DNA of 54,623 nt, taken from assembly GCA_016188475.1 (NCBI GenBank), contig JACPHT010000005.1, positions 1 through 54,623 on the forward strand, written 5' to 3'. The position numbers were made by a program, and so were the translations under genes. This stretch comes from Candidatus Uhrbacteria bacterium. Lineage in GTDB: Bacteria; Patescibacteriota; Patescibacteriia; UBA9934; GWF2-40-263. Below the pieces are notes generated by a model that was not told where the DNA came from, made no database searches, and saw only the letters and a list, made by a program, of their open reading frames with translations. Of this stretch, positions 22,244-38,632 are shown in pieces (within the stretch, counting starts at the first letter, position 1; each line of letters opens with the position of its first letter).

Positions 22244-24454
22244 ATGGCACAAAAAAACCAGTTCCAAACAGAATGGGGAGGAAAGATATTAACGATCGAG
22301 GTTGGAAAATACGCAAGTCAAGCTGGAGGATCTTGCGTTGTCCAATATGGCGATACTGTAGTGCTTGCGGCGGCAACAATGAGCAATGAAACAAAAGAAA
22401 GCATGGGATTTTTCCCACTCACTGTTGAATTTGAAGAAAAACTTTATGCGGCTGGACGCATTAAAGGCAGTCGTTTTATTAAAAAAGAAGGTAGGCCAAC
22501 TGATGAGGCTGTTCTTTCAGCACGTTTTATTGATCGCGCAATCCGTCCGTTATTTGATGATCATATCCGAAATGAAGTTCAAGTTGTTGTTACAACACTT
22601 GCTTTTGATGGAGAAAACGACCCCGATGTTTTGGGACTGATTGGTGCAAGTTGTGCGCTTCATATTAGTGATATTCCATGGAACGGTCCGATCGGCTGTA
22701 TTCGTGTCGGACAAATCGAAGGGGAGTGGGTAATAAACCCAAGTTATACAGCACGAGATAAATCACTTCTTGACCTCGCAATCGCTGGAACAAAAGAAAA
22801 AATCATAATGGTCGAAGCTGGCGCAAATGAAGCGCCTGAAGAAACTGTTTTGGAAGGATTTTGGTTTGGACAAAAACATATTGACGCGCCAATCAAACTG
22901 ATCAAAGAAATTCAAGCTGTTGTTGGAAAAGAAAAACGAAATTTGATTATTGAAAAAACAGAAGAAGAAAAAGAAGTCGAAGCTATTGCTGTTCCATTTC
23001 TTGTTGATCAAATCAAAGAGTTATTTTTTGGAACTCCGAAAGCTACAAAAGCCGACCGCAATCAACAAAAACAAATCCTAAAAAATAATCTAAAATCATT
23101 CTTGATCGAAAAAAGTGTTAAACCGGAATTGATTCACATTGGAACAGATATGATACTTGAAATTCTTGAGCGTGAAGTCTCAAGATCAATTCTTGAAAAT
23201 AACAAACGTGTTGATGGACGATCAATCACGCAAATCCGACCGCTTGTGAGTGAAGTCGCTGTTCTTCCTCGTGTTCATGGCAGTGGACATTTTATGCGTG
23301 GAGAAACACAAGTGCTTACCGTTGTAACACTTGGAGCTCCAGGGGACCAACAAACTCTCGATGGAATGGAACTTGTTGGAACAAAACGATTTTTCCATCA
23401 CTACAATTTTCCTCCATATTCAGTCGGGGAAGTGAAGCCAATGCGTGGGCCATCTCGCCGCGATATTGGTCATGGAGCTCTAGCAGAAAAAGCTATTCAA
23501 CCAATGCTTCCTGACAAAGAAAAATTTCCATACACAATTCGTGCGGTTTCCGAAGTATTCGGCTCAAACGGATCAAGCTCAATGGGATCAACTTGCGGAA
23601 CAACTTTGGCGCTCATGGATGCTGGTGTTCCTATAAAGGCTCCGGTTGCTGGAATAGCGATGGGGCTTGCTACTGATGAAAAAGGAAAATGGAAAGTAAT
23701 AACTGACCTACAAGATTTGGAAGATGGAAAAGGTGGAATGGATTTCAAAATCGCTGGATCAAAAACCGGAATCACTGCGATTCAAATGGACACAAAAACA
23801 GATGGTCTAACTCGAGAAATTATTGAAACAACAATAAAACAAGCTCGCGAAGCCCGTTTGGAAGTGTTGGACGTTCTAACTTCTGCAATCGCAGAGCCTC
23901 GTCCAGATCTTTCGCCATTTGCTCCACGAATTATTGTCATGCACATCAGTCCGGAACTCATTGGAAGCGTTATTGGGCCAAGCGGTAAAACAATCAATGA
24001 AATTATCTCAACAACCAACGTTCAAGCAATTGACATCGAGGATGACGGACTTGTAATGATCACCTCAACTGATGCGCAAGGCGCGATAAAAGCGCAAAGT
24101 ATTATTGAACAACTCACTCGGCAAGTCGTTGTTGGAGAAATTTACAAAGGAAAAATAACACGCGTTATGGATTTTGGCGCGATTGTCGAATTTTTACCAA
24201 AGAAGGATGGAATGGTTCATGTAAGCAACATGGCACCGTGGCGTGTTGACAAAGTAAGTGATATTGTAAAAATGGGAGATGAAGTGAGTGTCAAAGTTAT
24301 GGACCTTACTCCTGACGGAAAAATCAGTCTTTCAATGAAAGATGCGCCAGGGAACATATATCCTGAAAGACCAGCTCATAGTGATCGTCCACAAGCTCCA
24401 TCACGCGATCGAGGTCCTCGCAAACCATTTAGACCGTTTAACAGAAATCCATGA
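22244..24454 (+). CDS. pnp: Polyribonucleotide nucleotidyltransferase (PNPase)
   Basis: 736 aa, full length. Two RNase PH-like halves flank a helical linker: the first with VVQYGDTVVLAAATMS and RFIDRAIRPLF, the second with RGETQVLTVVTLGAPGD, GPSRRDIGHGALAEKA and the catalytic region SSSMGSTCGTTLALMDAG. They are followed by a KH domain with IGPSGKTINEI and an S1 domain (GKITRVMDFGAIVEF, DGMVHVSNMA). It degrades RNA phosphorolytically. The start ATG has no SD. The stop overlaps the next gene by ATGA. Confidence 0.98.
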   Translation: MAQKNQFQTEWGGKILTIEVGKYASQAGGSCVVQYGDTVVLAAATMSNETKESMGFFPLTVEFEEKLYAAGRIKGSRFIKKEGRPTDEAVLSARFIDRAIRPLFDDHIRNEVQVVVTTLAFDGENDPDVLGLIGASCALHISDIPWNGPIGCIRVGQIEGEWVINPSYTARDKSLLDLAIAGTKEKIIMVEAGANEAPEETVLEGFWFGQKHIDAPIKLIKEIQAVVGKEKRNLIIEKTEEEKEVEAIAVPFLVDQIKELFFGTPKATKADRNQQKQILKNNLKSFLIEKSVKPELIHIGTDMILEILEREVSRSILENNKRVDGRSITQIRPLVSEVAVLPRVHGSGHFMRGETQVLTVVTLGAPGDQQTLDGMELVGTKRFFHHYNFPPYSVGEVKPMRGPSRRDIGHGALAEKAIQPMLPDKEKFPYTIRAVSEVFGSNGSSSMGSTCGTTLALMDAGVPIKAPVAGIAMGLATDEKGKWKVITDLQDLEDGKGGMDFKIAGSKTGITAIQMDTKTDGLTREIIETTIKQAREARLEVLDVLTSAIAEPRPDLSPFAPRIIVMHISPELIGSVIGPSGKTINEIISTTNVQAIDIEDDGLVMITSTDAQGAIKAQSIIEQLTRQVVVGEIYKGKITRVMDFGAIVEFLPKKDGMVHVSNMAPWRVDKVSDIVKMGDEVSVKVMDLTPDGKISLSMKDAPGNIYPERPAHSDRPQAPSRDRGPRKPFRPFNRNP

Positions 24455-25707
24455 GCCAACAACTCCACATACAATTAACAAGATACCAAAAAACAACCCG
24501 CCGACCAAGGTGGGTTGTTTGGCTTCCGGCTCTATCTTTTCTTTTAATTTTTATATTTATCTATCAGATAACAACACTTTTTCTCACAAGAAACACTGTT
24601 TTTTCTGCTGCACCTGAAAATACTAAAATAGCAATCCAACTTTTGGTAAATGAAAAAACATTGCCAATTCTATCAAAAATCCTAAACACGGTTCCACTTA
24701 TTTCAAACAGAAGTTTCACACTGAAAGACATCCAACCTTTTGTTCATGGTGAAATTGGATGGTTTTTTCACGAAGATGGGGGCAGATCAATTGCGGTTCG
24801 ATCAAAAAAAAATGAACTTCCAACAAAACTTTTTGATGCAAACCAAATAATAGTTCAACAAATAAATTCTGATGTTTTTCTGCTAACAGACAAACTTCAA
24901 CCAATAGGCGGAATCAAATCAAAACATTCACTTGGAAACCTCATACCGTCATTTAAGCAAAAACTTGGAATGTTTTATGAGAAAGGGAAAAAGTCTGTCG
25001 TGATATCAGCGACAAAAGATGGAATCGTAATCCCTCTTTCAAATCAGGAAGCAATAAGCACATTTGATAGCAAAATAATCCAAGAAAATACATATATAGC
25101 ATTGAAACTTCCTCTTTTGGAAAAGGAAAATTTCGATATGTACCAAACTTTGTTTAAAGATCAGAATATCTTGCGATCTTTTTTTTCAACAGATGGGTTT
25201 TTGATGATGAAAGAAATCGAAAATCCAAAGTTTTTGCTTGTTTCAAAATCTGAGATGAACGATGAAGAAAAAATATCATTCTTACAAACAGAAATTGCGT
25301 TGAAAAATCCTTCAATAATCACTAAAAAACTTCCAGATAATACTCAAATGCAGGAATTTGTGTCAGATCCGAGTCTTGTATCGGTTGAACAAAAAATGAT
25401 CGAAGGTTTGGAATTCTACAAGGCGTCAACAAGTAATGAAGCTATTTTTGCAAGTAAAAAGGATGACTTAATAATTTCAAATAACGAGGAAATGATCAGA
25501 ATCTGGCTAAAAAATGAACAGAATAATAAAGTGTTAAAGATTTGTGACGCAAATGTCGCATTTTTATCTTTGAACGAATTTATTGAATCAAATTCGTTCA
25601 CGACCGAATTTTATAAAAACGATGTTTTAAGAACTCTCGCCGCAAATTTTAGGGTCGCATCTCTCGAAAAGAGCTGGAATTCAACAAAATTGAGGTTGTG
25701 TTTTTAA
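24451..25707 (+). CDS. Unknown single-pass membrane protein downstream of pnp
   Basis: 418 aa. A short basic N-terminus (RYQKTTRRPRW) leads into one transmembrane helix (about 27-47) and a long extracytoplasmic domain with no recognised family, loosely like DUF3352-type envelope proteins. The ATG overlaps the pnp stop by four bases. The first codons contain a perfect 9-bp hairpin (AAACAACCC/GGGTTGTTT, 24491-24520) that looks like a pnp terminator lacking a strong T-run. Codons are AT-rich like pnp. The orientation, cytoplasmic N-terminus and outer domain, is inferred. Confidence 0.7.
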   Translation: MSQQLHIQLTRYQKTTRRPRWVVWLPALSFLLIFIFIYQITTLFLTRNTVFSAAPENTKIAIQLLVNEKTLPILSKILNTVPLISNRSFTLKDIQPFVHGEIGWFFHEDGGRSIAVRSKKNELPTKLFDANQIIVQQINSDVFLLTDKLQPIGGIKSKHSLGNLIPSFKQKLGMFYEKGKKSVVISATKDGIVIPLSNQEAISTFDSKIIQENTYIALKLPLLEKENFDMYQTLFKDQNILRSFFSTDGFLMMKEIENPKFLLVSKSEMNDEEKISFLQTEIALKNPSIITKKLPDNTQMQEFVSDPSLVSVEQKMIEGLEFYKASTSNEAIFASKKDDLIISNNEEMIRIWLKNEQNNKVLKICDANVAFLSLNEFIESNSFTTEFYKNDVLRTLAANFRVASLEKSWNSTKLRLCF

Positions 25708-25708
25708 C

Positions 25709-25748
25709 TGTGGATAACTTATCAATAAGTATATATTATTGTGGATAA
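25709..25748 (+). promoter_or_regulatory. Two perfect DnaA boxes
   Basis: TGTGGATAA (exact complement of TTATCCACA) occurs at 25709-25717 and 25740-25748 in the same orientation, 31 bp apart, with ACTTAT/ATAAGT between them. It lies right after a stop codon, 11.5 kb from dnaA. Confidence 0.75.
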
Positions 25749-25830
25749 CTTTTTAAGTTTTTCAAACCATTTGAACACATCATTGTTTCAAAAAAACATT
25801 TTTTTGCTAAATTAAGCCAAACTTTGCTTA

Positions 25831-25859
25831 TTGATAAAATTTATTTTTTCTGATATCAT
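25831..25859 (+). promoter_or_regulatory. Probable promoter of the structured RNA
   Basis: TTGATA (25831-25836), a 17-bp spacer and TATCAT (25854-25859). Transcription would begin near 25866, at the GTGACC/GGTCGC hairpin. Confidence 0.6.
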
Positions 25860-25865
25860 ATAAGT

Positions 25866-26257
25866 GTGACCAAAATGGTCGCATCGTTCTTTATCTACAA
25901 TCTTGGGAGGTTTTCCGAAAGCTTTTTTGCAGGTGTCCCACGCTTGCTATCGCTATTCGGAAAACGTCTCACCGCTCTACTGTTCTGATAATAAAACAAA
26001 AACAGAACAGAAATAAATCTAGGTTAACTCGCAATAATATGAATTCATTCGAATTCATCGTGGGTAAAACCATGGAATGGTAGAGAGGTTGTGAACTTAG
26101 AGGAATAAATATGTGTTCACAGGGCGTCGAGTCGTACAGTTCAAATACTTGGACTTTACAGCCCGACGCCTATAGAACCGTATTTCCTCAATACTACGGG
26201 GCATAGCCGAAAAACACACTACATGTTACGCGGCTCACTGCCCTTCTTCTTTTTTTA
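25866..26257 (+). ncRNA. Large structured RNA, class not recognised
   Basis: About 390 nt without an ORF but with many perfect helices: GTTTTCCGAA/TTCGGAAAAC (25910-25919/25956-25965), CTGTTCTG/CAGAACAG (25980-25987/26003-26010), ATGAATTC/GAATTCAT (26039-26046/26051-26058), TGTGAAC/GTTCACA (26090-26096/26115-26121), GGCGTCG/CGACGCC (26123-26129/26164-26170) and a long-range CTCTA/TAGAG. A promoter precedes it and a GGGCA-GCCG/CGGC-TGCCC terminator with a T-run ends it at about 26257. Size fits tmRNA or RNase P RNA, but I see neither the tmRNA tRNA-like ends nor the RNase P GAGGAAAGTCC core, so it is left unassigned. Confidence 0.7.
26199..26257 (+). terminator. Terminator of the structured RNA
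   Basis: GGGCA (26199-26203)/TGCCC (26239-26243) and GCCG (26206-26209)/CGGC (26231-26234) form a two-step stem, followed by TTCTTCTTTTTTT. Confidence 0.7.
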
Positions 26258-26320
26258 GGAATATCTTTATTGATTCACTTTTCAATCAACTCGACATTGT
26301 CTCCATTTCTTCATAACTCT

Positions 26321-26349
26321 TTGCACAGATTCTGATATACTGATAGAGT
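26321..26349 (+). promoter_or_regulatory. Possible promoter of the dksA-like/lspA operon
   Basis: TTGCAC (26321-26326), a 17-bp spacer and TAGAGT (26344-26349). An alternative -10 TATACT lies at 26336-26341. Confidence 0.45.
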
Positions 26350-26370
26350 ATTTAGACTCAAAGAAACAAT

Positions 26371-26745
26371 ATGAACAAAGACTTTTACAATAAAATGAAG
26401 CAAAAACTGATTGAAGAAAAACAGGGGCTCGAACTTGAATTGTCAAAATTTGCGCATCGAAATCCAAAAGCGGCTGAAACTGATTTCAGCACGGATTTCC
26501 AAAACTTGGGCGATAAAGAAGATGAAAACGCATCCGAAGTGGCACGCTTTTCTGATAACCTTTCCCTTGAAGAAGAATTGGAAAAAGCATTGCGAGATGT
26601 TGAAAGCGCTCTTGCGATGATTGAAAACGGGACGTACGGAAAATGTAAATACTGTGGTCAAGAAATTGATGAACGCAGACTTTCCGCTCGCCCAACTTCA
26701 ACTTCATGCATTCAGTGTAAAAAAACATTGACACAAGAAATGTGA
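26371..26745 (+). CDS. TraR/DksA-family zinc-finger protein
   Basis: 124 aa. A coiled-coil N-terminal half (about 1-85, with an acidic DEN segment) is followed by a C4 zinc finger, C92-K-Y-C95 and C113-I-Q-C116. The IENGTYGKCKYCGQEIDERR block is the family hallmark. DksA-type proteins enter the RNA polymerase secondary channel with ppGpp; short family members in CPR are of unproven role. No SD. The stop overlaps lspA by ATGA, forming a two-gene operon. Confidence 0.9.
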   Translation: MNKDFYNKMKQKLIEEKQGLELELSKFAHRNPKAAETDFSTDFQNLGDKEDENASEVARFSDNLSLEEELEKALRDVESALAMIENGTYGKCKYCGQEIDERRLSARPTSTSCIQCKKTLTQEM

Positions 26746-27215
26746 AGCCTCGCTTTTTTATCTATTTTATTTTGATTCCAAGCGCGCTTATTGTTTTTTT
26801 TGACGAATTAATAAAATCCGTCGCAATAAAAAATTTCCCTGAAGAATCTTATCTCGCTTCACCAAAATTCCTTGAATTCGCAATTCACAAAAACTACGGT
26901 CTTGCCTTCGATATTCCGTTTAGACTCGAATTTGTAATAATCATTTCTGTAATACTTGGAATTTTTTTGCTTAGAATCGTTTTGAAAAATATATTCTTAA
27001 AACCTCGTATCGCTTTTTCAGTAATTCTTATTCTTCTTGGCGCGTCTGGAAATTTCTATGATCGGATAGTTTATGGATTTACTGTTGATTACATTATATT
27101 GTTTGGAAAAAGCGCAATAAATTTTTCAGACCTTATTATTATTCTCGGTGTTCTTTCTCTGTTATTGCTTTCATCAAAAAAACATTTGACAAATAATGAA
27201 ACTGTGATAGAATAA
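26742..27215 (+). CDS. lspA: Lipoprotein signal peptidase
   Basis: 157 aa, normal length, four transmembrane helices. Catalytic motifs are present: GASGNFYDRIVYGFTVDYI carries one active-site Asp and NFSDLIIILG the other, and KNYGLAFDIP is the conserved extracytoplasmic Asn-Gly loop. It cleaves prolipoprotein signal peptides after lipid modification. It is translationally coupled to the preceding DksA-like gene. The terminator after it ends exactly at the comM start codon. Confidence 0.95.
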   Translation: MKPRFFIYFILIPSALIVFFDELIKSVAIKNFPEESYLASPKFLEFAIHKNYGLAFDIPFRLEFVIIISVILGIFLLRIVLKNIFLKPRIAFSVILILLGASGNFYDRIVYGFTVDYIILFGKSAINFSDLIIILGVLSLLLLSSKKHLTNNETVIE

Positions 27216-27231
27216 TCATAGAAATCATAAA

Positions 27232-27260
27232 CCTCCCGTGACCTGGGAGGTTTTTGTTTT
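27232..27260 (+). terminator. lspA terminator adjacent to the comM start
   Basis: CCTCCC (27232-27237)/GGGAGG (27245-27250) with TTTTTGTTTT; the comM ATG begins at 27261. Confidence 0.8.
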
Positions 27261-28769
27261 ATGTTTCCAATAATATCTTCAGCAATTTACGGAGTTCGAG
27301 CGATTCCTGTTTCAATTGAAACAGATATTTCCGCTGGTCTTCCGCAATTCACAATCGTTGGTTTGCCAGACGCTTCTGTTCGCGAATCACGCGATAGAAT
27401 TCGTTCTGCCATAAAAAACAGCGGTCTCCATTTTCCAAGAGGTCGAGTCACTGTAAATCTCGCCCCAGCACATCTTCGCAAACAAGGCGCTCTTTATGAT
27501 TTACCTATCGCGCTTTCAATCCTGATTCAATCTGGAGAACTAAAGCTAAATACAATTGAACAGTCGGTATTGCTCGGCGAACTGGGACTTCATGGGGAAG
27601 TCAGAAGTGTGCAAGGAGTTCTTCCAACAGCAGTCATGGCAAACATGTTGGCTAAATATCTTTTATTTGTTCCGATCGATAACGCGAAGGAGGCGGCAAT
27701 AATCAGTAATATAAAAGTATTTGGAGTTGAAACATTTAAACAACTTCTAGCACATCTAAATGGCGATTCTTTGCTTGAGCCGTCGCTCCCAGAGCAACAA
27801 ATAGAACAACAGCATGAGATGTGTTTTTCTCAAATCTTCGGACAGTCTTTCGCAAAACGCGGGCTTGAAATCGCTGCCGCCGGCGGACACAACGTTCTGC
27901 TTCAAGGCCCGCCTGGAACTGGAAAAACGCTTCTTGCGCGAACTTTTCCTTCAATACTTCCAGCTCTTTCATACGAAGAAGCAATAGAAGTCGCAAGTAT
28001 CGCATCAATAGCGAACATTCCAAATAAAAACAATTTCCTTTCTTTTAACCGTCCATTTAGAAGCCCGCATCATTCATCTTCTGCTGTCTCACTTATAGGT
28101 GGTGGATCGTGGCCTGCTCCAGGGGAAGTAAGTTTAGCTCATCGCGGTGTTTTGTTTCTTGATGAGCTTCCAGAATTTCAACGTCATGTGCTTGAAAATT
28201 TAAGACAACCTCTTGAAGATGGAATTGTAACTGTCGCACGATCTGCTGGCGCATTTACATTCCCTGCTCGATTTCAACTTATTGCAACTCGTAATCCGTG
28301 TGCGTGTGGATTTATGAATGACCCAAAACGTGTTTGTGTTTGTTCAGCAAGGGAAATAGATAACTATCAAAAACGCCTTTCAGGTCCGCTTCTTGATCGG
28401 ATAGATATGGTAATCGATGTGCCGAATGTTAAACCAAAAGAAATGTCAGAAAGTCTGCAAGGAGAAACGTCAAAACAAATTCTTGTTCGTATTATATGTG
28501 CACGTAAAATACAAGAAGAACGTTTTTGTAAAACAACGATTAAACTCAATAACGAAATGCAATCATCAGATATTAAATCGTTTGCAAACATTTCTAAAAA
28601 AGCAAAAACGCTTCTTGATGAAGCGTTCTCTCATGGAATGATAAGTGCGCGAGGATATTTTCGTATTCAGAAAGTCGCACGCACAATCGCAGACCTTGCC
28701 CAGTCACAGACTGTTGAAGAAAATCATCTATCTGAAGCTTTGCAATTTCGTCTTTCTAAAAAAGAATAA
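27261..28769 (+). CDS. comM: YifB/ComM family Mg-chelatase-like AAA ATPase
   Basis: 502 aa. The N-terminal ChlI-like domain (about 1-170: GLPQFTIVGLPDASVRESRD, VNLAPAHLRKQGALYDLP) precedes an AAA+ core with Walker A GPPGTGKTLLAR, Walker B GVLFLDELPEF and sensor region LIATRNPCACG. A Cys pair/CVC cluster (NPCACGFMNDPKRVCVCS) is typical of the family. ComM is a branch-migration helicase that promotes integration of transformed DNA, and the gene is widespread in CPR. No SD: the ATG directly follows the lspA terminator. Confidence 0.94.
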   Translation: MFPIISSAIYGVRAIPVSIETDISAGLPQFTIVGLPDASVRESRDRIRSAIKNSGLHFPRGRVTVNLAPAHLRKQGALYDLPIALSILIQSGELKLNTIEQSVLLGELGLHGEVRSVQGVLPTAVMANMLAKYLLFVPIDNAKEAAIISNIKVFGVETFKQLLAHLNGDSLLEPSLPEQQIEQQHEMCFSQIFGQSFAKRGLEIAAAGGHNVLLQGPPGTGKTLLARTFPSILPALSYEEAIEVASIASIANIPNKNNFLSFNRPFRSPHHSSSAVSLIGGGSWPAPGEVSLAHRGVLFLDELPEFQRHVLENLRQPLEDGIVTVARSAGAFTFPARFQLIATRNPCACGFMNDPKRVCVCSAREIDNYQKRLSGPLLDRIDMVIDVPNVKPKEMSESLQGETSKQILVRIICARKIQEERFCKTTIKLNNEMQSSDIKSFANISKKAKTLLDEAFSHGMISARGYFRIQKVARTIADLAQSQTVEENHLSEALQFRLSKKE

Positions 28770-28771
28770 AT

Positions 28772-29146
28772 TCAACGTGTCCAAAAATATATTCCAACTA
28801 AAATAATTAGCCACAGAACCGCTAGCCAATCAAGAAAACGCATACGACTCTGAAACTCCGCCCAGCTTGCCCAAGCTCCATGTTTCCACGACCAACGTCG
28901 TCCAAAAATTAAAAGAATAAACAAAACAACAATACCAATAATTGGAACGAACGAAAGTAAAAACCAAATATAAAGCCGAGCTCCAAGCGCCCATCCTTGT
29001 GTAAAAAACATCGCTCCAAGAGACGGACCTCGTAAATATCTAGACTTAAGTTGTTCGTCTGGTTCAAGTACGAGATGAAAACCGCAAGAACTGCATTGTT
29101 TATTCCAAAGTTCAACTTCCTGTTTGCATTGTTGGCATGTTTGCAT
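28772..29146 (-). CDS. Zinc-ribbon membrane protein
   Basis: 124 aa. An N-terminal zinc ribbon (C4-Q-Q-C7, C18-S-S-C21) is followed by two or three hydrophobic helices (about 55-80 and 105-122). Small proteins with this layout are common but uncharacterised. It follows the M23 peptidase gene by 40 bases, likely the same transcript. The leader between them is a purine-rich degenerate repeat (AGTAGCAGAGTAGTAAAG). It ends two bases from the convergent comM stop. Confidence 0.78.
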   Translation of the reverse strand: MQTCQQCKQEVELWNKQCSSCGFHLVLEPDEQLKSRYLRGPSLGAMFFTQGWALGARLYIWFLLSFVPIIGIVVLFILLIFGRRWSWKHGAWASWAEFQSRMRFLDWLAVLWLIILVGIYFWTR

Positions 29147-29186
29147 ATTTTTCCATTTTCTATTCTGCTACTTTACTACTCTGCTA

Positions 29187-30422
29187 CTATCTTACATAAT
29201 CCAAAGGATTTTGGAATTTACCCTTCTTAATAACTTCAAAGTGCAAATGTGTTCCTGTTGATCTACCAGTTGTCCCAGTTCGTGCAAGCGCGTCTCCGGC
29301 TTTTACTACGTCTCCAACAGAAACAAAAAGTTTTGAGTGATGCGCATATCGGGTTACATATCCGTCACCATGATCAACTTCAACGGTGAGTCCATATCCT
29401 CCTCGCCATCCACTATAAATTACAACTCCGTCTCGAGCCGCATAACTATTAGTAGTGTAATCTCCGTCAATATCAACTCCTGTATGTCTCCAGCTAAAAT
29501 ATTGTGTAATCACACGCCAATCAGTTGGCCAAAGCCAATAACCTTCAACTGGTGGAGTTGATGAAGGAGGAACAAAGAGATTTGCAACAGATGAAGAACG
29601 TTTTGGCGCTTGAGAAATCGGTTCCCCGCCAGGAATCAAAAGTTCATCTCCAATTGAAAGACGGTCAGCACTAGCAAGTTTGTTTTGTTCAAGAATTTTT
29701 TCCGGCTCTACACCATAGCGTTGTGAAATTCTTGAAATAGTGTCGCCTGAACGAACGGTGTACAAAATACCGTTTGAAGGCAAGATCACAAGACTTTGTC
29801 CTGGTTGAATCGTACTTCTAAATGTAAGATTGTTCGACCAAAGAATAGTGCTGAGATTCAACCCAAACTTTTCAGAAATCTGACCAAGTGTATCTCCTTC
29901 TTGAACAACATATTTTTCGATATTGTCGCGTGTTGGAACAGAAGAAGCGGTACCAGCTCCTCCGGTTGTTGAAGTTACATACGACTGATCAAGATAGTTT
30001 AAATCTATATGCGCGCCAGCATCCAAAATAGTGTCATTTAGATAGGCGACGCTTGTTCCAGTTGAAATAATACTGTCGCTTGCGGTTACAACTTCAACAT
30101 CTTGCGAGTCGTCAACTGCGATAAGTGAATGCAAAATGCTTTTCTGCCCAAATGTTTGCGCGCGAACTTCGCGTGTGCTTATGTTTGCAAATACAACCGC
30201 AACAACCAAAACAACCATCATCGCATGAACTGTGTAACGATTGGTGATAATGCTTAAAAGCCTATGTTTTGTTGGACGCGCAACACGATAAATAAGATGT
30301 CGAATAAAAAAAGTGAATCGGTAAATTGGAATTCCAATCCATCGAATCAAAAAAAGCCCTATGATTGAAATTGGTTTGGTTATAATGCCAAACCCTGTTC
30401 CAGCGTAGCGCTTGAAGAGCAT
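29187..30422 (-). CDS. LysM-containing M23 family peptidoglycan endopeptidase
   Basis: 411 aa. A basic cytoplasmic N-terminus and a membrane segment (about 66-88) are followed by a Ser/Thr-rich stretch, two LysM domains (YVVQEGDTLGQISEKFGLN and YTVRSGDTISRISQRYGVE, about 160-270) and a C-terminal M23 peptidase with the metal-binding motifs HTGVDIDG and GTHLHFEV plus YGLTVEVDHGDGY. All zinc ligands are present, so it should be an active cell-wall endopeptidase tethered outside the membrane. The start at 30422 has no SD. It is divergent from hppA. Confidence 0.93.
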   Translation of the reverse strand: MLFKRYAGTGFGIITKPISIIGLFLIRWIGIPIYRFTFFIRHLIYRVARPTKHRLLSIITNRYTVHAMMVVLVVAVVFANISTREVRAQTFGQKSILHSLIAVDDSQDVEVVTASDSIISTGTSVAYLNDTILDAGAHIDLNYLDQSYVTSTTGGAGTASSVPTRDNIEKYVVQEGDTLGQISEKFGLNLSTILWSNNLTFRSTIQPGQSLVILPSNGILYTVRSGDTISRISQRYGVEPEKILEQNKLASADRLSIGDELLIPGGEPISQAPKRSSSVANLFVPPSSTPPVEGYWLWPTDWRVITQYFSWRHTGVDIDGDYTTNSYAARDGVVIYSGWRGGYGLTVEVDHGDGYVTRYAHHSKLFVSVGDVVKAGDALARTGTTGRSTGTHLHFEVIKKGKFQNPLDYVR

Positions 30423-30541
30423 GAGCCCGCGTAAAAAACCGAGAAGTCCGCGGACAACAAATTGTTTTATTTTGATTCGAATATATGTGTTATTAAACGC
30501 TTAAAATAATAACAAAAAATGATCGATCCGTCAATGAAACT

Positions 30542-30570
30542 TTGACAAAAAGCATTTTTTTTCCTAATAT
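30542..30570 (+). promoter_or_regulatory. hppA promoter
   Basis: TTGACA (30542-30547), a 17-bp spacer and TAATAT (30565-30570), about 70 bases upstream of the hppA ATG. Confidence 0.8.
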
Positions 30571-30638
30571 ATCCGCGTTCATCTGTTTAATCCTTAATTC
30601 CACTTGCTACTTTGCAACTCTACTACTTTATTTTACAT

Positions 30639-32630
30639 ATGCCTATTACTTACTACGCAATTGGTGCAGGAATTCTGGCACTTCTCTATGGAGTCGCTTT
30701 AATTCAATGGATTCTTAAACGTCCGGCTGGCGAAGGTAAAATGAAAGGTATCGCGCTTGCAATTCAAGAAGGCGCGAACGCTTACATGTCGCGCCAGTAC
30801 AAAGTGATAGCTGGAATCGGCGCTGTTATTTTTCTCATATTAGGATTTGCACTGAACTGGACACTTGCGATTGGATTTTTGGTTGGTGCGATTCTTTCCG
30901 GTCTTGCTGGTATTATCGGTATGTCAGTTTCAGTTCGCGCAAACGTTCGAACAGCAGAGGCAGCAAAAAACGGGCTGTCTGCAGCAATGGATATTGCGGC
31001 TCGTGGTGGTTCAGTCACAGGGCTTTTTGTAGTTGGTCTTGCGCTTATTGGCGTTGCTGGATTTTACGCGATAACAGGTGATGTTCAAGCGCTTGTCGGA
31101 CTTGGATTCGGTGGATCACTTATCAGTGTGTTTGCGCGTTTGGGCGGTGGAATCTTCACAAAAGCCGCTGATGTTGGAGCTGACTTGGTTGGAAAAACAG
31201 AAGCTGGAATTCCTGAAGATGATCCAAGAAACCCTGGAGTGATAGCTGATAATGTCGGAGATAATGTTGGTGACTGCGCTGGAATGGCGGCTGATTTATT
31301 TGAAACATATGCTGTAACAACAGTCGCGACAATGCTTCTTGGTTCACTTTTATTTGAAGGAAATCAGACAATAGTTGTTTATCCTTTGGCTCTTGGAGCA
31401 ATTGCTATTGTTGCATCAATAATTGGAACGTTCTTCATCAAAATCAGCGCGGACAAAAAAATCATGAAAGCATTGTACAAAGGTTTGATTGTTGCCGGAG
31501 TTCTAGCCGCGATTGGTTTTTATCCTGTTACAACAAAAATGCTTTCTGGTGTTTCTGGAATTCAACCAATGAATGTTTATTTCAGCGCGATCGTCGGACT
31601 AATTGTCACAGCTCTCATGATTGTAATAACAGAATTTTATACAAGCACAGCGCACAAACCAGTTCAGGAACTTGCAAAAGCTTCTGAATCCGGACACGGA
31701 ACAAACATTATTGCTGGAATTGCGCTTTCAATGAAATCAACCGCATTACCAGTTCTTTCAATCGTGCTTGGTATATTGGTTTCATATCAATTCGCCGGCT
31801 TGTTCGGAATCGCGATTGCGGCAATGGCAATGTTGTCACTCACAGGAATCATTGTTGCGATGGATGCTTATGGACCAATCACAGACAATGCTGGCGGCAT
31901 TGCTGAAATGGCAGAGCTTCCAAAAGAAGTGCGTGACGTTACTGATCCACTTGACGCAGTTGGCAACACAACAAAAGCAGTTACAAAAGCTTACGCGATC
32001 GGATCTGCAGGTCTCGCAACACTTGTTTTGTTTGGTGATTATATTCACGCAATCAAAGCCGAGGGTGTTGATGTTGTATTTACTCTTGTTGACCCGCGAG
32101 TGATTGCGGGACTCTTTCTCGGCGGTCTTGTTACATATCTTTTTGGCGCAATGGCAATGGAAGCTGTTGGAAAAGCGGCCGGCGCTGTTGTTGAAGAAGT
32201 TCGCCGACAGTTCCGTGAGATTCCTGGAATCATGCAAGGCACTGCAAAACCTGAATATGGAAAAGCAGTTGATATCGTAACTCAATCAGCGCTTCGAAGA
32301 ATGATCGCTCCTGCTGTCTTGGCAGTTTTATCTCCGATTGTTGTTGGATTTTTGCTTGGACCTGAAGCGCTCGGAGGACTTTTGATCGGTTCAATTATCA
32401 CTGGACTCTTTGTCGCAATTTCAATGACAACAGGTGGTGGAGCTTGGGACAATGCAAAGAAATTTATTGAGGCTGGAAACTACGGCGGTAAAGGATCTGA
32501 CGCTCATAAAGCAGCCATAACTGGAGACACTGTTGGAGATCCATATAAAGACACAGCTGGCCCAGCAATCAATCCGATGATAAAAATTTTGAATATTGTA
32601 GCTTTGTTGATCGTAGCGTTGATTGTGTAG
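30639..32630 (+). CDS. hppA: Membrane-bound ion-pumping pyrophosphatase
   Basis: 663 aa with about 16 transmembrane helices. The ATG at 30639 (MPITYYAIG) was preferred to a TTG nine codons earlier. Active-site loops are intact: [45 protein letters not shown] and [14 protein letters not shown]. The GNTTKA motif has Lys where K+-dependent enzymes have Ala, which predicts a K+-independent, probably proton-pumping enzyme. It couples PPi hydrolysis to membrane energisation, useful in cells with limited respiration. No SD; the leader is a degenerate CTACT repeat. An intrinsic terminator follows. Confidence 0.97.
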
Positions 32631-32695
32631 CCCACGGCTTTAGACGTGGCGAAGGAGTGATGAAGTGAGAAAGTAAAGAAAAGCAAAAAAATAAG

Positions 32696-32740
32696 CGACT
32701 TACTGCTAAATCTATCAAAAAGCGGTAAGTCGTTTTTTAT
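32696..32740 (+). terminator. hppA terminator
   Basis: 11-bp stem CGACTTACTGC (32696-32706)/GCGGTAAGTCG (32722-32732, one G-U pair) followed by TTTTTT. Confidence 0.85.
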
Positions 32741-32741
32741 T

Positions 32742-32872
32742 GAGAGATTGTTGCAATACTTCTATTCTTGCCTGAGCTTGTCGAAGGCTGTAGGCAAATA
32801 AGCCAAATTTTACCCATTCGACAGGCTCAGGGAATAAAATTTGGCTTTTGAACAGAGTTTTTCAACGGTCTC
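32742..32872. repeat. Palindromic TIR element, copy A
   Basis: Nested inverted repeats: outer GAGA...GTTG...AC left end versus GAGTTTTTCAACGGTCTC right end; middle CCTGAGCTTGTCGAAGG (32771-32787) versus TTCGACAGGCTCAGG; inner GCCAAATTTTA (32802-32812) versus TAAAATTTGGC (32835-32845). No ORF. Same family as copies at 40035, 43418 and 51178. Confidence 0.8.
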
Positions 32873-32882
32873 TTTGTGCTTA

Positions 32883-32910
32883 TTGACATAAAATAATACT
32901 TGTGTAAAAT
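32883..32910 (+). promoter_or_regulatory. Promoter of the ParB-like accessory operon
   Basis: TTGACA (32883-32888), a 16-bp spacer and TAAAAT (32905-32910), about 60 bases upstream of the first GTG. Confidence 0.75.
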
Positions 32911-32972
32911 AGCCTGTTCATCGCGGATTTGCCGCTTTGGACTTGGTTTCACACAAATATGGAGGGATTTAT

Positions 32973-33707
32973 GTGAGAAGCGAAGGATTGCGAGGACATA
33001 TAGAAGATTGTGTACGTGACCTTGCCGGAAGGCTTGAATCAAGATATCCAAAAGGTTCAAGATCCTGCGCATTCATCAGACAACCAATCGCAGACTTCTG
33101 CGGTGTGGGATTGAAAACCGCCACAAGGTGGCTTCACAGCCCAGACTCTCTTCCAAACGGAACCCAGCTCATAAAGCTCATGTGTTATTTACAAATGATC
33201 GGCTACCGTGTAATTGAGTGGGAGAAAATCCCGGTTGCTCGCAGGAACTTTGCGGAACTTCTAGGATTCGGGATCCTTTCGGTAGAGCAAGCTCGCGTGA
33301 TAATCGGTTACTCCACAACAACCACAACTTATCAAGTCCTACTTGGCCACTACGGTACAAGCAAGGACAAAGATGGGATTATGTGGGAAACGTGGAAATC
33401 GAAAATGGGCGAGCTCGAGGGAGTGAAATCGGATGCTCTGCAAAAATATCGTCTTGATCTCTCAAGTGTAAAACAGCCGAGAACAGAAACTCAAGGACAG
33501 ATTCCTCAAGCAATCGCTCCAACTCGATTTACGGCGATATCCTATTTCATGGACGGCTTGAAAGCACTGCTTGAGGATAAATCTTTCATAAACACTGAAC
33601 TTGACTCTGCTGACGTTGCGCCGCTCAAAGAAACTATAAGCAGACTCCAACAAGTTTTGAGTGTTATACACTCGAAACTGAAAGGAGATGCTAATGACGA
33701 CGAATGA
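32973..33707 (+). CDS. Unknown protein, first gene of the ParB-like operon
   Basis: 244 aa from the GTG at 32973, chosen because GGAGGG lies seven bases upstream; the frame extends to a TTG at 32937 without an SD. The N-terminal 90 residues look like a small helical DNA-binding region: IADFCGVGLKTATRWLHSP fits a helix-turn-helix with a DNA-recognition helix, and NGTQLIKLMCYLQMIGY resembles Xre-type helix 5. The C-terminal 60 residues are helical and may dimerise. No known family. The end overlaps the next start by 14 bases. Codons are G/C-rich. Confidence 0.72.
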   Translation: MRSEGLRGHIEDCVRDLAGRLESRYPKGSRSCAFIRQPIADFCGVGLKTATRWLHSPDSLPNGTQLIKLMCYLQMIGYRVIEWEKIPVARRNFAELLGFGILSVEQARVIIGYSTTTTTYQVLLGHYGTSKDKDGIMWETWKSKMGELEGVKSDALQKYRLDLSSVKQPRTETQGQIPQAIAPTRFTAISYFMDGLKALLEDKSFINTELDSADVAPLKETISRLQQVLSVIHSKLKGDANDDE

Positions 33708-33954
33708 GTACATAGCAACTGTCGAGAAGATCATTCAAAACGGCAAGCATGGACCTTACGCCGTAGCTCGGTGCGAAGAACTTGATTCAATCACTTTCTC
33801 GCTTGACAGAAAAGTCTGGAAAGAAGACGATCTTCCAGAGCCTGGAATGATCGTCGTGCTCTCGAAAGTCAGGAAAAAGCGTGCCGGGTGGCGCGCTTTG
33901 GTCGGGCGGCACATCACTCCGTCTGACAAAGCAACCAGCAGCAGCAAGGAGTAA
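33694..33954 (+). CDS. Unknown 86-aa protein, second gene of the ParB-like operon
   Basis: The second ATG (MTTNEYIATVEKII) was chosen because AAAGGAG is six bases before it, whereas the first ATG touches the SD. The protein is compact and mixed alpha/beta with a basic beta-hairpin centre (PGMIVVLSKVRKKRAGWRALV) that could be a small OB or SH3-like nucleic-acid binder, but this is only a resemblance. It is followed four bases later by the ParB-like gene. Function unknown. Confidence 0.68.
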   Translation: MTTNEYIATVEKIIQNGKHGPYAVARCEELDSITFSLDRKVWKEDDLPEPGMIVVLSKVRKKRAGWRALVGRHITPSDKATSSSKE

Positions 33955-33957
33955 CAA

Positions 33958-34755
33958 GTGAAGGTTGTGGGGATTCGAAGAGTTCGTGTAACTGACCTGA
34001 AGATGAATCTGTTCGTACGAAAAGAGCTCAACACCGAACACGCGCTGTACTTGGGTCAGCTCATTGAGAGTGGTGTCAAGATGAAGGACATGATCGATGT
34101 AACTGACCGCGGTGGAGAGCAGAACGTCGTAGTCGAGGGCCGTCACCGAAAAGAGGGCTACGAACTCGCGCACGTGGAAGATATCGATGTTAGGGTTCTC
34201 GAATTCGAGTCCGAGGCTGAAATGATCGGCTACGCGTACCGAGCCAACACCGGCGGATCTCTTCCTCCGACGCCACAAGACACAGAGCACACAGTCATGT
34301 TGCTCATCGATAAGGGAGAGACAATCAAGCACATCGGTGAGCTTCTCGGACTTCCTGCTAGCATGGCGCGTATTTACGTCAAGTCAGTGAAATCCAAGAT
34401 AGCAAGACAGAACCTTATGAAAGCAACTGCCGCTGTCACAGAAGGCGGACTCACGGTTCAGCAGGCAGCTGAAAAGCACGGTGCGGATTTCGAAGATCTC
34501 AAAACCCATCTTTCTGGCAAGCGCAAACAGCGCAAGAATGGAGTCGCGGACATCCAGCGCTCTCTGACCTCCGCATACAAGTCCATGGGTTCCAGCAACG
34601 CAGCGATGATCAGAAGCCTCCTTGAAAAACTCGAGGACGGCGATGTGACACGCAAGCAGGTGACGGAAATTTTCAATCACCTCACAGCTCTTCAGAAGTC
34701 GGCCTTACGCTCTATTGAAGGATGGAGAAAGAGGTTCGAGGCAAAAAAAGCCTAA
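33958..34755 (+). CDS. ParB/Srx-like nuclease-fold DNA-binding protein
   Basis: 265 aa with a GTG start preceded by AGCAAGGAG. The N-terminal ParB/sulfiredoxin-like domain (about 1-95) shows VVVEGRHRKEGYELAHVEDI, corresponding to the ParB GERRxxA nucleotide-binding box, and the later helix-turn-helix (about 120-150) is IKHIGELLGLPASMARIYVKS. The C-terminal third is basic and helical. The box differs from chromosomal ParB (one Arg replaced by His) and no parA is adjacent, so it is more likely an accessory ParB-fold regulator than the segregation ParB. It is the third gene of a promoter-to-terminator unit 2.5 kb from dnaA. Confidence 0.78.
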   Translation: MKVVGIRRVRVTDLKMNLFVRKELNTEHALYLGQLIESGVKMKDMIDVTDRGGEQNVVVEGRHRKEGYELAHVEDIDVRVLEFESEAEMIGYAYRANTGGSLPPTPQDTEHTVMLLIDKGETIKHIGELLGLPASMARIYVKSVKSKIARQNLMKATAAVTEGGLTVQQAAEKHGADFEDLKTHLSGKRKQRKNGVADIQRSLTSAYKSMGSSNAAMIRSLLEKLEDGDVTRKQVTEIFNHLTALQKSALRSIEGWRKRFEAKKA

Positions 34756-34781
34756 CAACCTCAACTTCTCAAATCACTCTT

Positions 34782-34804
34782 ACAGCCACTTTGGCTGTTT
34801 TTTC
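34782..34804 (+). terminator. Terminator of the ParB-like operon
   Basis: ACAGCCA (34782-34788)/TGGCTGT (34792-34798) with TTTTTTC. Confidence 0.8.
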
Positions 34805-34876
34805 ATTGACAAAATAGTAGTTTGCTATTAGCCTTTAGCCGTTAGACAAGCCTTTAGCCATTAGCTTTTAGACATT

Positions 34877-36169
34877 ATGCCATCAATCAATATCGAGGAA
34901 AAAGAAAAAGCGACTATAAAAATAACCTTCACTGTTACTCAAGAAGAAGCCAGACCTTATCTTGAAGAAGCGGCTGAACGACTCTGCAAGCAAACTCCAA
35001 TCCCGGGTTTTCGCCCAGGAAAAGCGGGTTTTGAAATTGTAAAACAGCGTTTTGGTGAGATGAAAATTTTGGAAGAAGCGCTCGAACCTATTATCAGAAA
35101 ATCATTCGTTGAAGCGGTTCTTTCGCATAACATCGAAACTGTTGGCTCGCCAAAAATCGATGTTGAAAAATTAGCTCCAGGAAATGATATTGTTTTTATT
35201 GCTGAAGTTGCGCGAATGCCAAAAGCGCTCTCTCTTACTGATTACAAAAAACTAACTGTCACAGCAAAACCTGTCGAAATTACTGACAAAGAAATTGATC
35301 TTGCGATCCGTGATATTCAAAAAATGCAAACAAAAGAAGTTCGTTCGAAATCAGGATCTCAAATCAACGAAAAAAATAAAGTGGTTCTATCAATGAGCAT
35401 TAAAAAAGATGGTGTTGCGATCGATGGGGGACAGTCACCTAACCACGCTATCTATTTGTCCGAGGATTATTATATTCCCGGTCTTAAGGAACAATTGATC
35501 GGATTGAAAGAAGGAGACCAAAAAACATTCACACTTCCGTTTCCAAAAGAGCATGTTCAAAAAATGTTAGCGGGAAATAATGTTGATTTTGATATTACAA
35601 TCAAAGAAATTTATAACCTTGAACCTCCTGTAATTGATGACGTGTTTGCAAGTTCACTCGGAACGAAGGACCTAAATGAATTAAGAAAAAAAATCGACAA
35701 AAATTTAAGGGACGAAAAAGAGATTGAAGAACAGACTCGTCAAGAAAAAGAAATGTTTGACCTACTTGTAAAGAAATCTCAGTTTGAAGAAATCCCGGAT
35801 CTTCTTTTGAATGAAGAAATAAATAAAATGATTGATGAACTAAAGCGCAATGTTGAGTCTCAAGGTCTTGAATTTGAAACCTACATTTCAAATCTTAAAA
35901 AGACGCTTGCTCAGCTTAAAATTGATTTTACCCCGCAAGCGTTAACGAGAATCAAAGTTGCGATTGCTCTTCGCTTTGTTGCTGAAAAAGAAAATGTCGA
36001 AATAAAAGATGATGAAGTCGACGCGGAGCTTGATAGAATCGCTGGACATTACGAAGATCCTGAAATGAAAAAACGAGTTTATGAACCGTCATTTCGAGAA
36101 TACATTGAACGCGTGCTTATAAATCGAAAAACTATTAGTTTGCTTAAACAGCTCATGGTGAAAGTATGA
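34877..36169 (+). CDS. tig: Trigger factor
   Basis: 430 aa, normal length. The N-terminal ribosome-binding domain has the signature loop GFRPGKAGFEIVKQRFG, slightly diverged from GFRxGKxP. A central FKBP-type prolyl isomerase domain (about 150-240) carries KVVLSMSIKKDG, PGLKEQLIGLKEGDQKTFTLPFP, and the C-terminal helical chaperone arms follow. It binds nascent chains at the ribosome exit. No SD; the leader is a degenerate TTAGCC repeat. The stop overlaps yggU by ATGA. Confidence 0.93.
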   Translation: MPSINIEEKEKATIKITFTVTQEEARPYLEEAAERLCKQTPIPGFRPGKAGFEIVKQRFGEMKILEEALEPIIRKSFVEAVLSHNIETVGSPKIDVEKLAPGNDIVFIAEVARMPKALSLTDYKKLTVTAKPVEITDKEIDLAIRDIQKMQTKEVRSKSGSQINEKNKVVLSMSIKKDGVAIDGGQSPNHAIYLSEDYYIPGLKEQLIGLKEGDQKTFTLPFPKEHVQKMLAGNNVDFDITIKEIYNLEPPVIDDVFASSLGTKDLNELRKKIDKNLRDEKEIEEQTRQEKEMFDLLVKKSQFEEIPDLLLNEEINKMIDELKRNVESQGLEFETYISNLKKTLAQLKIDFTPQALTRIKVAIALRFVAEKENVEIKDDEVDAELDRIAGHYEDPEMKKRVYEPSFREYIERVLINRKTISLLKQLMVKV

Positions 36170-36396
36170 TCCTGACAGTTTACGCAAAACCAAGCGCAAA
36201 AAAAAATTCAGTTGAATGGGTCGATGAAGATACAGTGAAAATTTCAGTTACTGCAAAACCTGAAAAAGGGAAGGCAAACGAAGCGATTTTAGAGCTTTTG
36301 TCTGAAGAACTCGATATAAGAAAAACAGCAATGGAAATTATTCGCGGAAAAACTACGCGAATCAAACAAATTGAAATTTTAGACAAGACATCATAA
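36166..36396 (+). CDS. yggU: DUF167/YggU family protein
   Basis: 76 aa. Typical small DUF167 fold with VYAKPSAKKNSVEW, VKISVTAKPEKGKANEAILELLSEEL and IIRGKTTRIKQIEI. The function is unknown; the structure class is a small alpha/beta protein. It is translationally coupled to tig. Its 3' end overlaps yidD, on the opposite strand, by six bases. Confidence 0.9.
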   Translation: MILTVYAKPSAKKNSVEWVDEDTVKISVTAKPEKGKANEAILELLSEELDIRKTAMEIIRGKTTRIKQIEILDKTS

Positions 36397-36642
36397 AACT
36401 GGATCATTTCCACCTTTTGAAAAAGGATTGCACCGCAAAATTCGCTTCAAAGCCATCAAACCACCACGCAAAACACCATATTGATCTATGGCTTGATAAC
36501 CGTAATCTGAACAAGTTGGGTTAAACCGGCAAAAACCGTCTGGATAAAAATACCGAACGAATCCGTGATCAAAAGAAATCGTCTTTTGATATATCCTTAT
36601 AGTGAACAAAACAATTTCTTTGAAAAAAACACGCAAACTCAT
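36391..36642 (-). CDS. yidD: Membrane protein insertion efficiency factor YidD
   Basis: 83 aa. The hallmark CRFNPTCSDYGYQAIDQYG, then LKRILRCNPFSKGGNDPV, gives the conserved Cys pattern. YidD sits at the membrane near YidC and aids insertion. It is the last gene of the rpmH-rnpA-yidD operon and overlaps rnpA by four bases. yidC is not adjacent on this side of the window's origin region. The last Cys-His motif has Asn in place of His (RCNPF). Confidence 0.94.
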   Translation of the reverse strand: MSLRVFFKEIVLFTIRIYQKTISFDHGFVRYFYPDGFCRFNPTCSDYGYQAIDQYGVLRGGLMALKRILRCNPFSKGGNDPVL

Positions 36643-36983
36643 AAAAGTATACGTGTTTTTTGTTTGAGAGTTTTAAAAATTTCTTCTTCAAAATCCTTGC
36701 TTTTTTTCCCAATCGCTTCTTTCTTTGGCATTAACACAACGTCAAACCCAGGACGAAAATTTTTGAGTTGTTTGAAAATTATCGCACTGATTTGTCTTCG
36801 CAAACGATTTCTAACAACGGCGCTTTTTGAAACTTTCGTACCAACAACAACAGCAAACCGAGAAACTAAAATATGATTTGGTCGATATTTGATATTAATA
36901 AGCAAACCAAAGACGCCTTTGCCTTTTGCAAAGAGCGTTTTGATATCTTTATCATTTCGAAGTCGATGCTCTTTTGAGAGCAT
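36639..36983 (-). CDS. rnpA: Ribonuclease P protein component
   Basis: 114 aa. The hallmark basic helix VVRNRLRRQISAI with upstream VVVGTKVSKSA, and MLSKEHRLRNDKDIKTLF at the start, identify RnpA, which assists the RNase P RNA in tRNA 5' processing. It lies five bases downstream of rpmH and overlaps yidD. Confidence 0.95.
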   Translation of the reverse strand: MLSKEHRLRNDKDIKTLFAKGKGVFGLLINIKYRPNHILVSRFAVVVGTKVSKSAVVRNRLRRQISAIIFKQLKNFRPGFDVVLMPKKEAIGKKSKDFEEEIFKTLKQKTRILL

Positions 36984-36988
36984 ACTTT

Positions 36989-37135
36989 TTATTTATCGCT
37001 AACACTCAAACGTTTTCGCCCTTTAGCGCGACGACGTTTAAGAACAGTTTGACCGGTGGATGTTTTCATGCGAGCACGAAATCCATGCACTTTAGAACGC
37101 TGACGTTTTTTTGGTTGATATGTGCGTTTTGGCAT
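36989..37135 (-). CDS. rpmH: 50S ribosomal protein L34
   Basis: 48 aa on the minus strand: start [19 protein letters not shown], then [20 protein letters not shown] and GRKRL, the invariant L34 pattern with a short C-terminal extension (SVSDK). It is the first gene of rpmH-rnpA-yidD, divergent from dnaA as in most bacteria. A possible -10 TATACT lies in the shared intergenic region, next to a DnaA-box-like site. Confidence 0.97.
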
Positions 37136-37166
37136 AGTGTGTTAAGTATAAATAAATACTAACATC

Positions 37167-37237
37167 ATATCCACAACAAATCAACCTATTTACCAACGTT
37201 TCAATAACTTGCCCACATGTGGACAATTAGTTAAACT
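37167..37237. promoter_or_regulatory. dnaA promoter with DnaA boxes
   Basis: DnaA-box matches: ATATCCACA (37167-37175), TTGCCCACA (37209-37217) and TGTGGACAA (37218-37226), the last two forming an inverted pair. A promoter TTGCCC (37209-37214), 17 bp, TAAACT (37232-37237) overlaps them, so DnaA probably represses its own gene. Transcription would start only a few bases before the ATG. Confidence 0.65.
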
Positions 37238-37246
37238 GTCAGCCGT

Positions 37247-38632
37247 ATGAACACCAACGAACTTTGGCAAGCAGTACTAGGTGAACTTGAGCTTTCACTT
37301 AGTAAGGCAAACTTCACAACATGGTTTAAACAAACCTTTATTTCTGAAGTTCGTGAAAACTCTGTAATTGTAGGAGTGCCAAATCTGTTCACAAAAGCTT
37401 GGCTTGAAAAAAAATACGCCAAGGAAATTCTTCAATCGCTTCAAGATCTCACAAATGGATCTGTAAAACAACTTACGTATCGAGTTGAAACCAGATCTCA
37501 AAATCCACAAATCGTTAATATTTCCAAACCAACACCGGAACCAAAAGTTCAATCTGAATCATATCAACCAAGAACAGAGTACGAACCGCAGGAAATTAGA
37601 ACTGGTGAGTTTTCTTTAAATAATAAATACTGTTTCTCCGCCTTTATAGTTGGAAAACAAAATGAGCTTGCTCACGCGGCAGCTCAAGCTGTTTGCGCTC
37701 AACCTGGAGGAGTTTATAATCCGCTCTTTATTTATGGCGGAGTAGGCCTTGGAAAAACCCATCTTTTGCAAGCTGTTGGAAACGAACTTATTAGAAAAAA
37801 CCCGGAAACACGCATTCTCTACGTAACGTGCGAGCGTTTTACAAATGATTTTATAACAGCTCTCAAAACCAACCGAATGGTCGAGTTTAAGAACAGATAT
37901 AGAACTGTGGATGTTTTGTTGGTAGACGATATTCAATTTATTACAGGAAAAGAGGGAACACAGGAGGAATTTTTCCACACTTTTAACCAACTTTATCAAA
38001 ACAATAAGCAAATTGTAATTTCTTCAGATCGACCACCAAAAGCTATTCCAGCACTTGAAAATAGGCTTGTTTCACGTTTTGAATGCGGAATGATGGCTGA
38101 CGTGGGTTCTCCTGACTTTGAAACACGTATTGCGATCCTTGAAACCAAATGTCGAGAGAAGTCTTATATGATGGAAAGAGAGATCTTGCATCATGTTGCA
38201 ACAGTAATTCAAACCAATGTTCGTGAGCTTGAAGGTGCGTTAAATAAAATTATTGCTTTTCACCAATTCAAAAACATTAAACCAACTGCTGAAAGTGTTA
38301 AACCAATACTTTCAAGTTTCCAACCTTCTAATACACGAAAATCAATCACTCCAAAACAACTTATCTTAACAGTAGCTGGATATTTTGACGTTCAAATTGA
38401 AGATCTGCTTGGGCAAAGTCGCCAAAAACGTCTGGCCTTTCCTAGGCAAATAATTATGTACATCATGCGAGAGGAAATGAAAGCGAGTTACCCATCAATC
38501 GGAACAGAGCTTGGCGGAAGAGATCACACAACAGCAATGCATGCGTATGAAAAAATCAGTGGGTGTCTTGAAACAGATGAAAAACTTCAACATGATTTGG
38601 AGCTGATTAAGCAGAAGTTATACGCAATTTAG
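37247..38632 (+). CDS. dnaA: Chromosomal replication initiator DnaA
   Basis: 461 aa. Domain I (about 1-80: LWQAVLGELELSLSKANFTTW), a short variable linker, the AAA+ domain with Walker A GGVGLGKTHLL and Walker B VLLVDDIQFI, the sensor region SSDRPPKAIPALENRLVSRFE, and C-terminal DNA-binding domain IV with GGRDHTTAMHAYEKI. All motifs are intact. It binds boxes in its own promoter and downstream. The ATG lies at the 5' end of the predicted transcript with no SD. Confidence 0.98.
   Translation: MNTNELWQAVLGELELSLSKANFTTWFKQTFISEVRENSVIVGVPNLFTKAWLEKKYAKEILQSLQDLTNGSVKQLTYRVETRSQNPQIVNISKPTPEPKVQSESYQPRTEYEPQEIRTGEFSLNNKYCFSAFIVGKQNELAHAAAQAVCAQPGGVYNPLFIYGGVGLGKTHLLQAVGNELIRKNPETRILYVTCERFTNDFITALKTNRMVEFKNRYRTVDVLLVDDIQFITGKEGTQEEFFHTFNQLYQNNKQIVISSDRPPKAIPALENRLVSRFECGMMADVGSPDFETRIAILETKCREKSYMMEREILHHVATVIQTNVRELEGALNKIIAFHQFKNIKPTAESVKPILSSFQPSNTRKSITPKQLILTVAGYFDVQIEDLLGQSRQKRLAFPRQIIMYIMREEMKASYPSIGTELGGRDHTTAMHAYEKISGCLETDEKLQHDLELIKQKLYAI

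Follow-up and report, generated by a model that had tools for sequence, protein, structure and literature searches.

What is encoded by the stretch that separates the pnp neighbourhood from the traR-type and lspA genes in a Candidatus Uhrbacteria genome? The first-pass annotation of the window (the whole 54,623-nt stretch of DNA analysed here) had proposed a large, heavily structured RNA gene there, and had left the choice between a very divergent housekeeping RNA and a new class.

A structured RNA gene without Rfam relatives

Within the interval 25866–26257 no ORF reaches 60 aa, in agreement with its description as non-coding. Its predicted fold is multi-domain, with a minimum free energy of −140.1 kcal/mol compared with −89.9 ± 5.6 kcal/mol for shuffled sequences (z = −9.0). 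Together with covariation in relatives, this stability bears out the proposed RNA gene: the long-range pairing and the six or more perfect helices described initially are all present, the helices now being backed by covariation rather than by a single sequence. The likely promoter, the T-run terminator and the two perfect DnaA boxes upstream were also recovered (Table 1). Judging from the sequence, the interval almost certainly represents a genuine gene for a structured RNA.

Of the 4227 families in Rfam 15, tmRNA and RNase P included, none reached its gathering score in the window; only chance-level matches were obtained (E up to 5), and no family matched the interval, which settles one of the checks suggested with the first-pass annotation. 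Comparison of 26 homologous loci with Rfam likewise gave no match, the single sub-threshold match lying outside the RNA, and the open-access literature searched yielded no account of such an RNA from candidate phyla radiation (CPR) bacteria. Our preferred reading is a large structured non-coding RNA (~350–400 nt) of a class not described before, rather than a disguised housekeeping RNA, with a probability of roughly 0.8; this is a joint figure that covers a new class, an own promoter and terminator, vertical conservation, action in trans and DnaA-tied synthesis. The novelty is that of an RNA class without family resemblance, as large structured RNAs of unknown function are already known as a broader kind.

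Table 1. Features of the RNA locus and its surroundings (window coordinates)
Feature	Position	Strand	Remarks
pnp	22244–24454		
Upstream neighbour, 418-aa protein	24451–25707	+	no Pfam match; follows pnp, whose neighbourhood is retained class-wide
DnaA box 1, perfect	25709–25717	+	TGTGGATAA; immediately follows the stop codon of the upstream gene
DnaA box 2, perfect	25740–25748	+	31 bp from box 1
Conserved element TTGAACACA	25771–25779	+	from alignment; inverse of TGTGTTCAA, which other families carry in the promoter spacer
Predicted σ70-type promoter	25831–25859	+	TTGATA-17-TATCAT; extended −10 (TG before −10); aligned with TTGAC-17-TATNAT promoters of homologues
Structured RNA	25866–26257	+	
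5′ hairpin of predicted transcript	25866–25882	+	7 bp; genus-specific, absent or replaced in other genera
boxA-like element	25886–25892	+	GTTCTTT; from aligned leaders; putative role
5′ domain	25904–25971	+	P1 25904–25908/25967–25971; P2 25910–25919/25956–25965; P2a 25929–25935/25941–25947
Core domain P3	25975–26085	+	11-bp helix 25975–25985/26075–26085
A-rich single strand inside P3	25993–26004	+	AAAACAAAAACA; conserved in most family members and recurring in further families of the class
P3 inner helices	26022–26025/26068–26071; 26027–26032/26060–26065	+	covariation in the family and class-wide
P5 hairpin	26122–26171	+	GGGCGUYGAGU...ACCCRACGCC; A-C mismatch; covariation
Predicted intrinsic terminator	26198–26256	+	hairpin 26198–26243 (GGGCA..AGCCG/CGGCU..UGCCC), T-rich 26244–26256; from sequence
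TraR/DksA-type zinc-finger protein	26371–26745	+	downstream neighbour; neighbourhood kept across the class
lspA	26742–27215		next after the traR-type gene
comM-like Mg-chelatase-family gene	27261–28769		after lspA
dnaA	37616–38098	+	

A single layout was found in all 26 aligned loci, comprising the upstream stop codon, the DnaA-box doublet, a TTGAACACA-like element, the promoter, the RNA, a GC hairpin with T run and traR, with additional sequence between RNA and traR in one of them (L003). At the terminator's position, several homologues (L008, L013 and L015–L017) carry short canonical GC hairpins followed by a T run; the hairpin in the window was left unflagged by a simple terminator scanner, for which its loop is too long. 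The 418-aa protein encoded between pnp and the RNA keeps its position across the family.

Helices covary in the family and across the class

A lack of covariation in relatives had been named at the outset as part of what would refute the proposal. Over 45 core pairs in a MAFFT alignment of 26 family members, the helices instead covary strongly. Changes on both sides were seen in 28 of the 45 pairs (169 cells), 91.6% of core cells were paired compared with 36–47% for slid partners, and none of 500 shuffles did as well. Unconstrained RNAalifold recovered the same structure. Class-wide (40 sequences, in an alignment fitted to the model), 40 of the 45 pairs had changed on both sides and 92.4% were paired, compared with 36–50%.

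In the 5′ domain, 95.2% of cells were paired (40–56% when slid), the clearest part being P2a with two-sided changes in five of seven pairs; its apical loop reads UCCCA here and CCCCAC in most relatives. P5 likewise showed two-sided changes (13 of 18 pairs; 91.9% of cells paired). In P3, for which 97.6% and 93.5% of cells were paired, a U-G pair is invariant (26 of 26 sequences) and the adjoining G-U pair is kept in 23 of 26; the invariance of the former argues that selection acts on an RNA and not on a DNA cruciform.

The A-rich strand within P3 is absent from families f2 and f4 and is thus not essential to the class. In f4 (L093, L097–L105 and L140) a hairpin stands in its place, and the GGG(G) loop of this hairpin is complementary to the P2 loop CCCA. 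No intramolecular partner of the CCCCAC loop was seen in the Uhrbacteria family, and a UGGGG partner loop was seen in f4. Pairing between the GGGG-type and CCCA loops in f4 is only suggestive, the contact consisting largely of a match over four bases that shows few changes.

The RNA appears confined to one class

By DNA search, 26 of the 60 relatives examined gave matches, and these all belong to one family. Of 73 genomes of the order, 54 were positive with a covariance model built on the core (R1), all four families being represented, and a broader model (R2) was positive in 46 of 381 genomes of the class, 14 of them outside the order. In all 14 the RNA adjoins pnp and/or traR, which lends support independent of the model, and in six it shares a contig with dnaA, ~12–23 kb apart. 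Among 380 genomes of the phylum, only two family members (G000 and G012) and one weak match (G427), whose neighbour genes were not found within 2 kb, were obtained; phylum-wide spread was consequently rejected, and the RNA seems to be restricted to the class. Where no match was obtained (19 of 73 genomes in the order and most of the class), the RNA may be lost or may have diverged too far for the model.

Of 99 loci found by pattern search, mostly in other phyla, 95 had no model match; the remaining four were three Candidatus Uhrbacteria and the relative DeMMO3_34. In the single-contig genome G144 (1.17 Mb), exactly one match was found at E up to 5. A single-copy RNA, vertically conserved in Candidatus Uhrbacteria and in further families of their CPR class, accounts best for this distribution. 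The one exact core pattern searched had no match in viral contigs, on which basis a phage origin was weakly rejected.

DnaA boxes accompany the promoter

The proposed 5′ end at position 25866 lies 7 nt past the −10 element, the spacing expected of a start site. A recognisable promoter is present in 64 of 65 homologues, and at least one perfect DnaA box lies in the 420 nt upstream of 64 of 65, compared with 0.01 expected (background of 0.0105 per 420 nt over 800 kb); the homologues share ancestry, so that these counts are not independent events, yet they span many families. In 400 kb of sequence from G005, and likewise from G006, no perfect boxes other than this doublet lie close together. Whether DnaA would control transcription of the RNA is, on this sequence evidence, an even bet; alternatively, the boxes might be part of an origin.

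Between their −35 and −10 elements, the promoters often carry GTGTTCA or a similar sequence, the inverse of TTGAACACA (L019, L086, L092–L100, L103–L106, L131 and L141), possibly a regulator site. GTTC(T/C)TT occurs in nearly all of 18 aligned leaders, and a loose boxA-like pattern in 59 of 65 homologues. These leader starts (GTTCTTT or similar) resemble GYTCTTTAANA, the gammaproteobacterial boxA consensus (PMC5725501). Sequences in the rRNA leaders of four relatives are only loosely similar to boxA, so recruitment of Nus factors is hypothetical here, and a function of the leader element as boxA appears possible though doubtful.

Alternative explanations

As tmRNA and RNase P RNA have a similar size and complexity, we asked whether the candidate might be a very divergent form of either. 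Both RNAs were found elsewhere in the genome, RNase P RNA at G000:C3:44542-45127 (63 bits, E = 1.8e−19) and tmRNA at G000:C10:102752-103142 (141 bits), neither RF00010 nor RF00023 matched the candidate at E up to 5, in line with the absence of their core motifs remarked on initially, and ARAGORN detected no tmRNA, a class marked by tRNA-like ends and a tag ORF, in the window. This identity is refuted for this genome, with a negligible residual probability. RNase P RNA in the genus is unusually long and low-scoring (586 nt and 63 bits at the locus above; 698 nt and 21 bits at G001:C25:17183-17880), which suggests large insertions. Identity as a divergent SRP RNA or as a stand-in for 6S RNA would fit slots that look empty, with 6S models matching in 0 of 72 genomes and SRP models in 0 of 40 and 0 of 25; the 6S and large-SRP models also miss several control genomes, so absence of either RNA is not proven by these counts. 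Against either identity, no Rfam score for SRP (RF00169, RF01854) or 6S (RF00013) families was obtained at the candidate, and 6S RNA forms a rod with a central bubble whereas the candidate is multi-domain. The SRP core (CAGG-stem-loop-AGCAG), searched as a 20-mer with three mismatches, gave two chance-like matches only in 40 relatives, and a relaxed pattern none in G144 or in the window. A first regex search for SRP GTPases found none, and tblastn with E. coli Ffh had no match in G144, where trmD and rpsP were found; an SRP RNA there would therefore lack its protein. SRP or 6S identity is very unlikely. Hence, of the two options left by the first-pass annotation, covariation favours the new class, tmRNA and RNase P RNA being excluded from the other. 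Two Rfam models and the core pattern identified no SRP RNA in G144 and relatives, and G144 gave no Ffh match; the class may lack a signal recognition particle.

The position of the RNA just upstream of traR, on the same strand in most homologues, would suit a cis-acting leader or attenuator of traR-lspA. Such a leader would always lie upstream of, and co-oriented with, one gene; at three loci, however, this arrangement is broken, traR and lspA being inverted relative to the RNA (L127), separated from it by >1 kb (L136) or, in the case of traR, missing from the 1.3 kb downstream (L126). The RNA also has its own terminator, and a promoter-like sequence lies between it and traR, making a leader highly improbable, while action in trans is probable. 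Alternatively, the locus could be a replication origin at which initiation is served in cis by the RNA or by the act of transcribing it, as an activating transcript or a primer in the manner of plasmid RNA II or E. coli mioC/gid. The doublet adjoins the promoter, dnaA lies 11 kb downstream in the window, and the cumulative GC-skew minimum falls near 29.5 kb of the window and 11 and 22 kb from the RNA in G005 and G006, respectively. However, in the closed and more distant genome G144 the minimum (~558–607 kb) is >200 kb from the RNA at 829 kb, and in G085 it is broad; moreover, transcription of the RNA runs away from the boxes, which lie upstream of it, and the elaborate conserved fold exceeds the needs of a primer or of mere transcription. 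Initiation in cis is accordingly improbable. Origin linkage, which holds in G005 and G006, was rejected as a general rule on the basis of G144, and our claim is limited to DnaA boxes at the promoter rather than the identity of an origin. In the window itself, dnaA, the doublet and the skew minimum all fall within 13 kb (25709–38100), probably the origin region of this genome.

Comparison with other large bacterial RNAs

GOLLD, ROOL and OLE (PMC12286853) are likewise large, elaborate bacterial RNAs supported by covariation, and their functions are poorly understood. The candidate differs from them in having no Rfam match, another structure, a length of 350–400 nt and its own DnaA-box promoter; the candidate is chromosomal, in one kept neighbourhood, in contrast to the association of GOLLD and ROOL with phages and tRNA islands. 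Closer in character is the Soda Lake RNA (smtA motif) of Thioalkalivibrio (PMC11109978), also lineage-restricted, >350 nt in length and with strong covariation. It occurs in another lineage and gene neighbourhood and in one genus, compared with several families of a class for the candidate. Size alone is shared with tmRNA and RNase P RNA, which occupy other loci of the genome and whose models give the candidate no score. With 6S RNA the candidate would share abundance and stand-alone synthesis; it has neither the rod with central bubble nor a model score.

Proposed role and implications

In our model of this new RNA class, the RNA folds into a 5′ hairpin domain (P1/P2, with the conserved CCCCAC loop), the core P3 and the P5 hairpin, P3 comprising an 11-bp helix with near-invariant tandem G-U pairs and the conserved A-rich strand. 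Its strong promoter and its terminator, as predicted from sequence, would drive stand-alone synthesis, and on these grounds the RNA is expected to be expressed. DnaA beside the promoter would set transcription and thereby tie synthesis to the replication initiator, and Nus factors recruited to the boxA-like start may make transcription processive. Most likely, the product would be an abundant RNA or RNP of the housekeeping type that acts in trans. More speculatively, and with rather low odds, a DnaA-switched, class-wide RNA might feed back on chromosome replication or growth in these minimal, probably host-dependent bacteria, possibly as an RNA-only homo-oligomer formed via the CCCCAC loop and the A-rich strand.

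CPR genomes are tiny, yet the elaborate fold has been kept across several families of the class, which suggests an important function for a gene of a kind overlooked by protein-based annotation. The apparent absence of SRP in G144 raises the question of what replaces the standard housekeeping RNPs, and the DnaA-box promoter a directly testable one, namely whether a structured RNA is under the control of the replication initiator.
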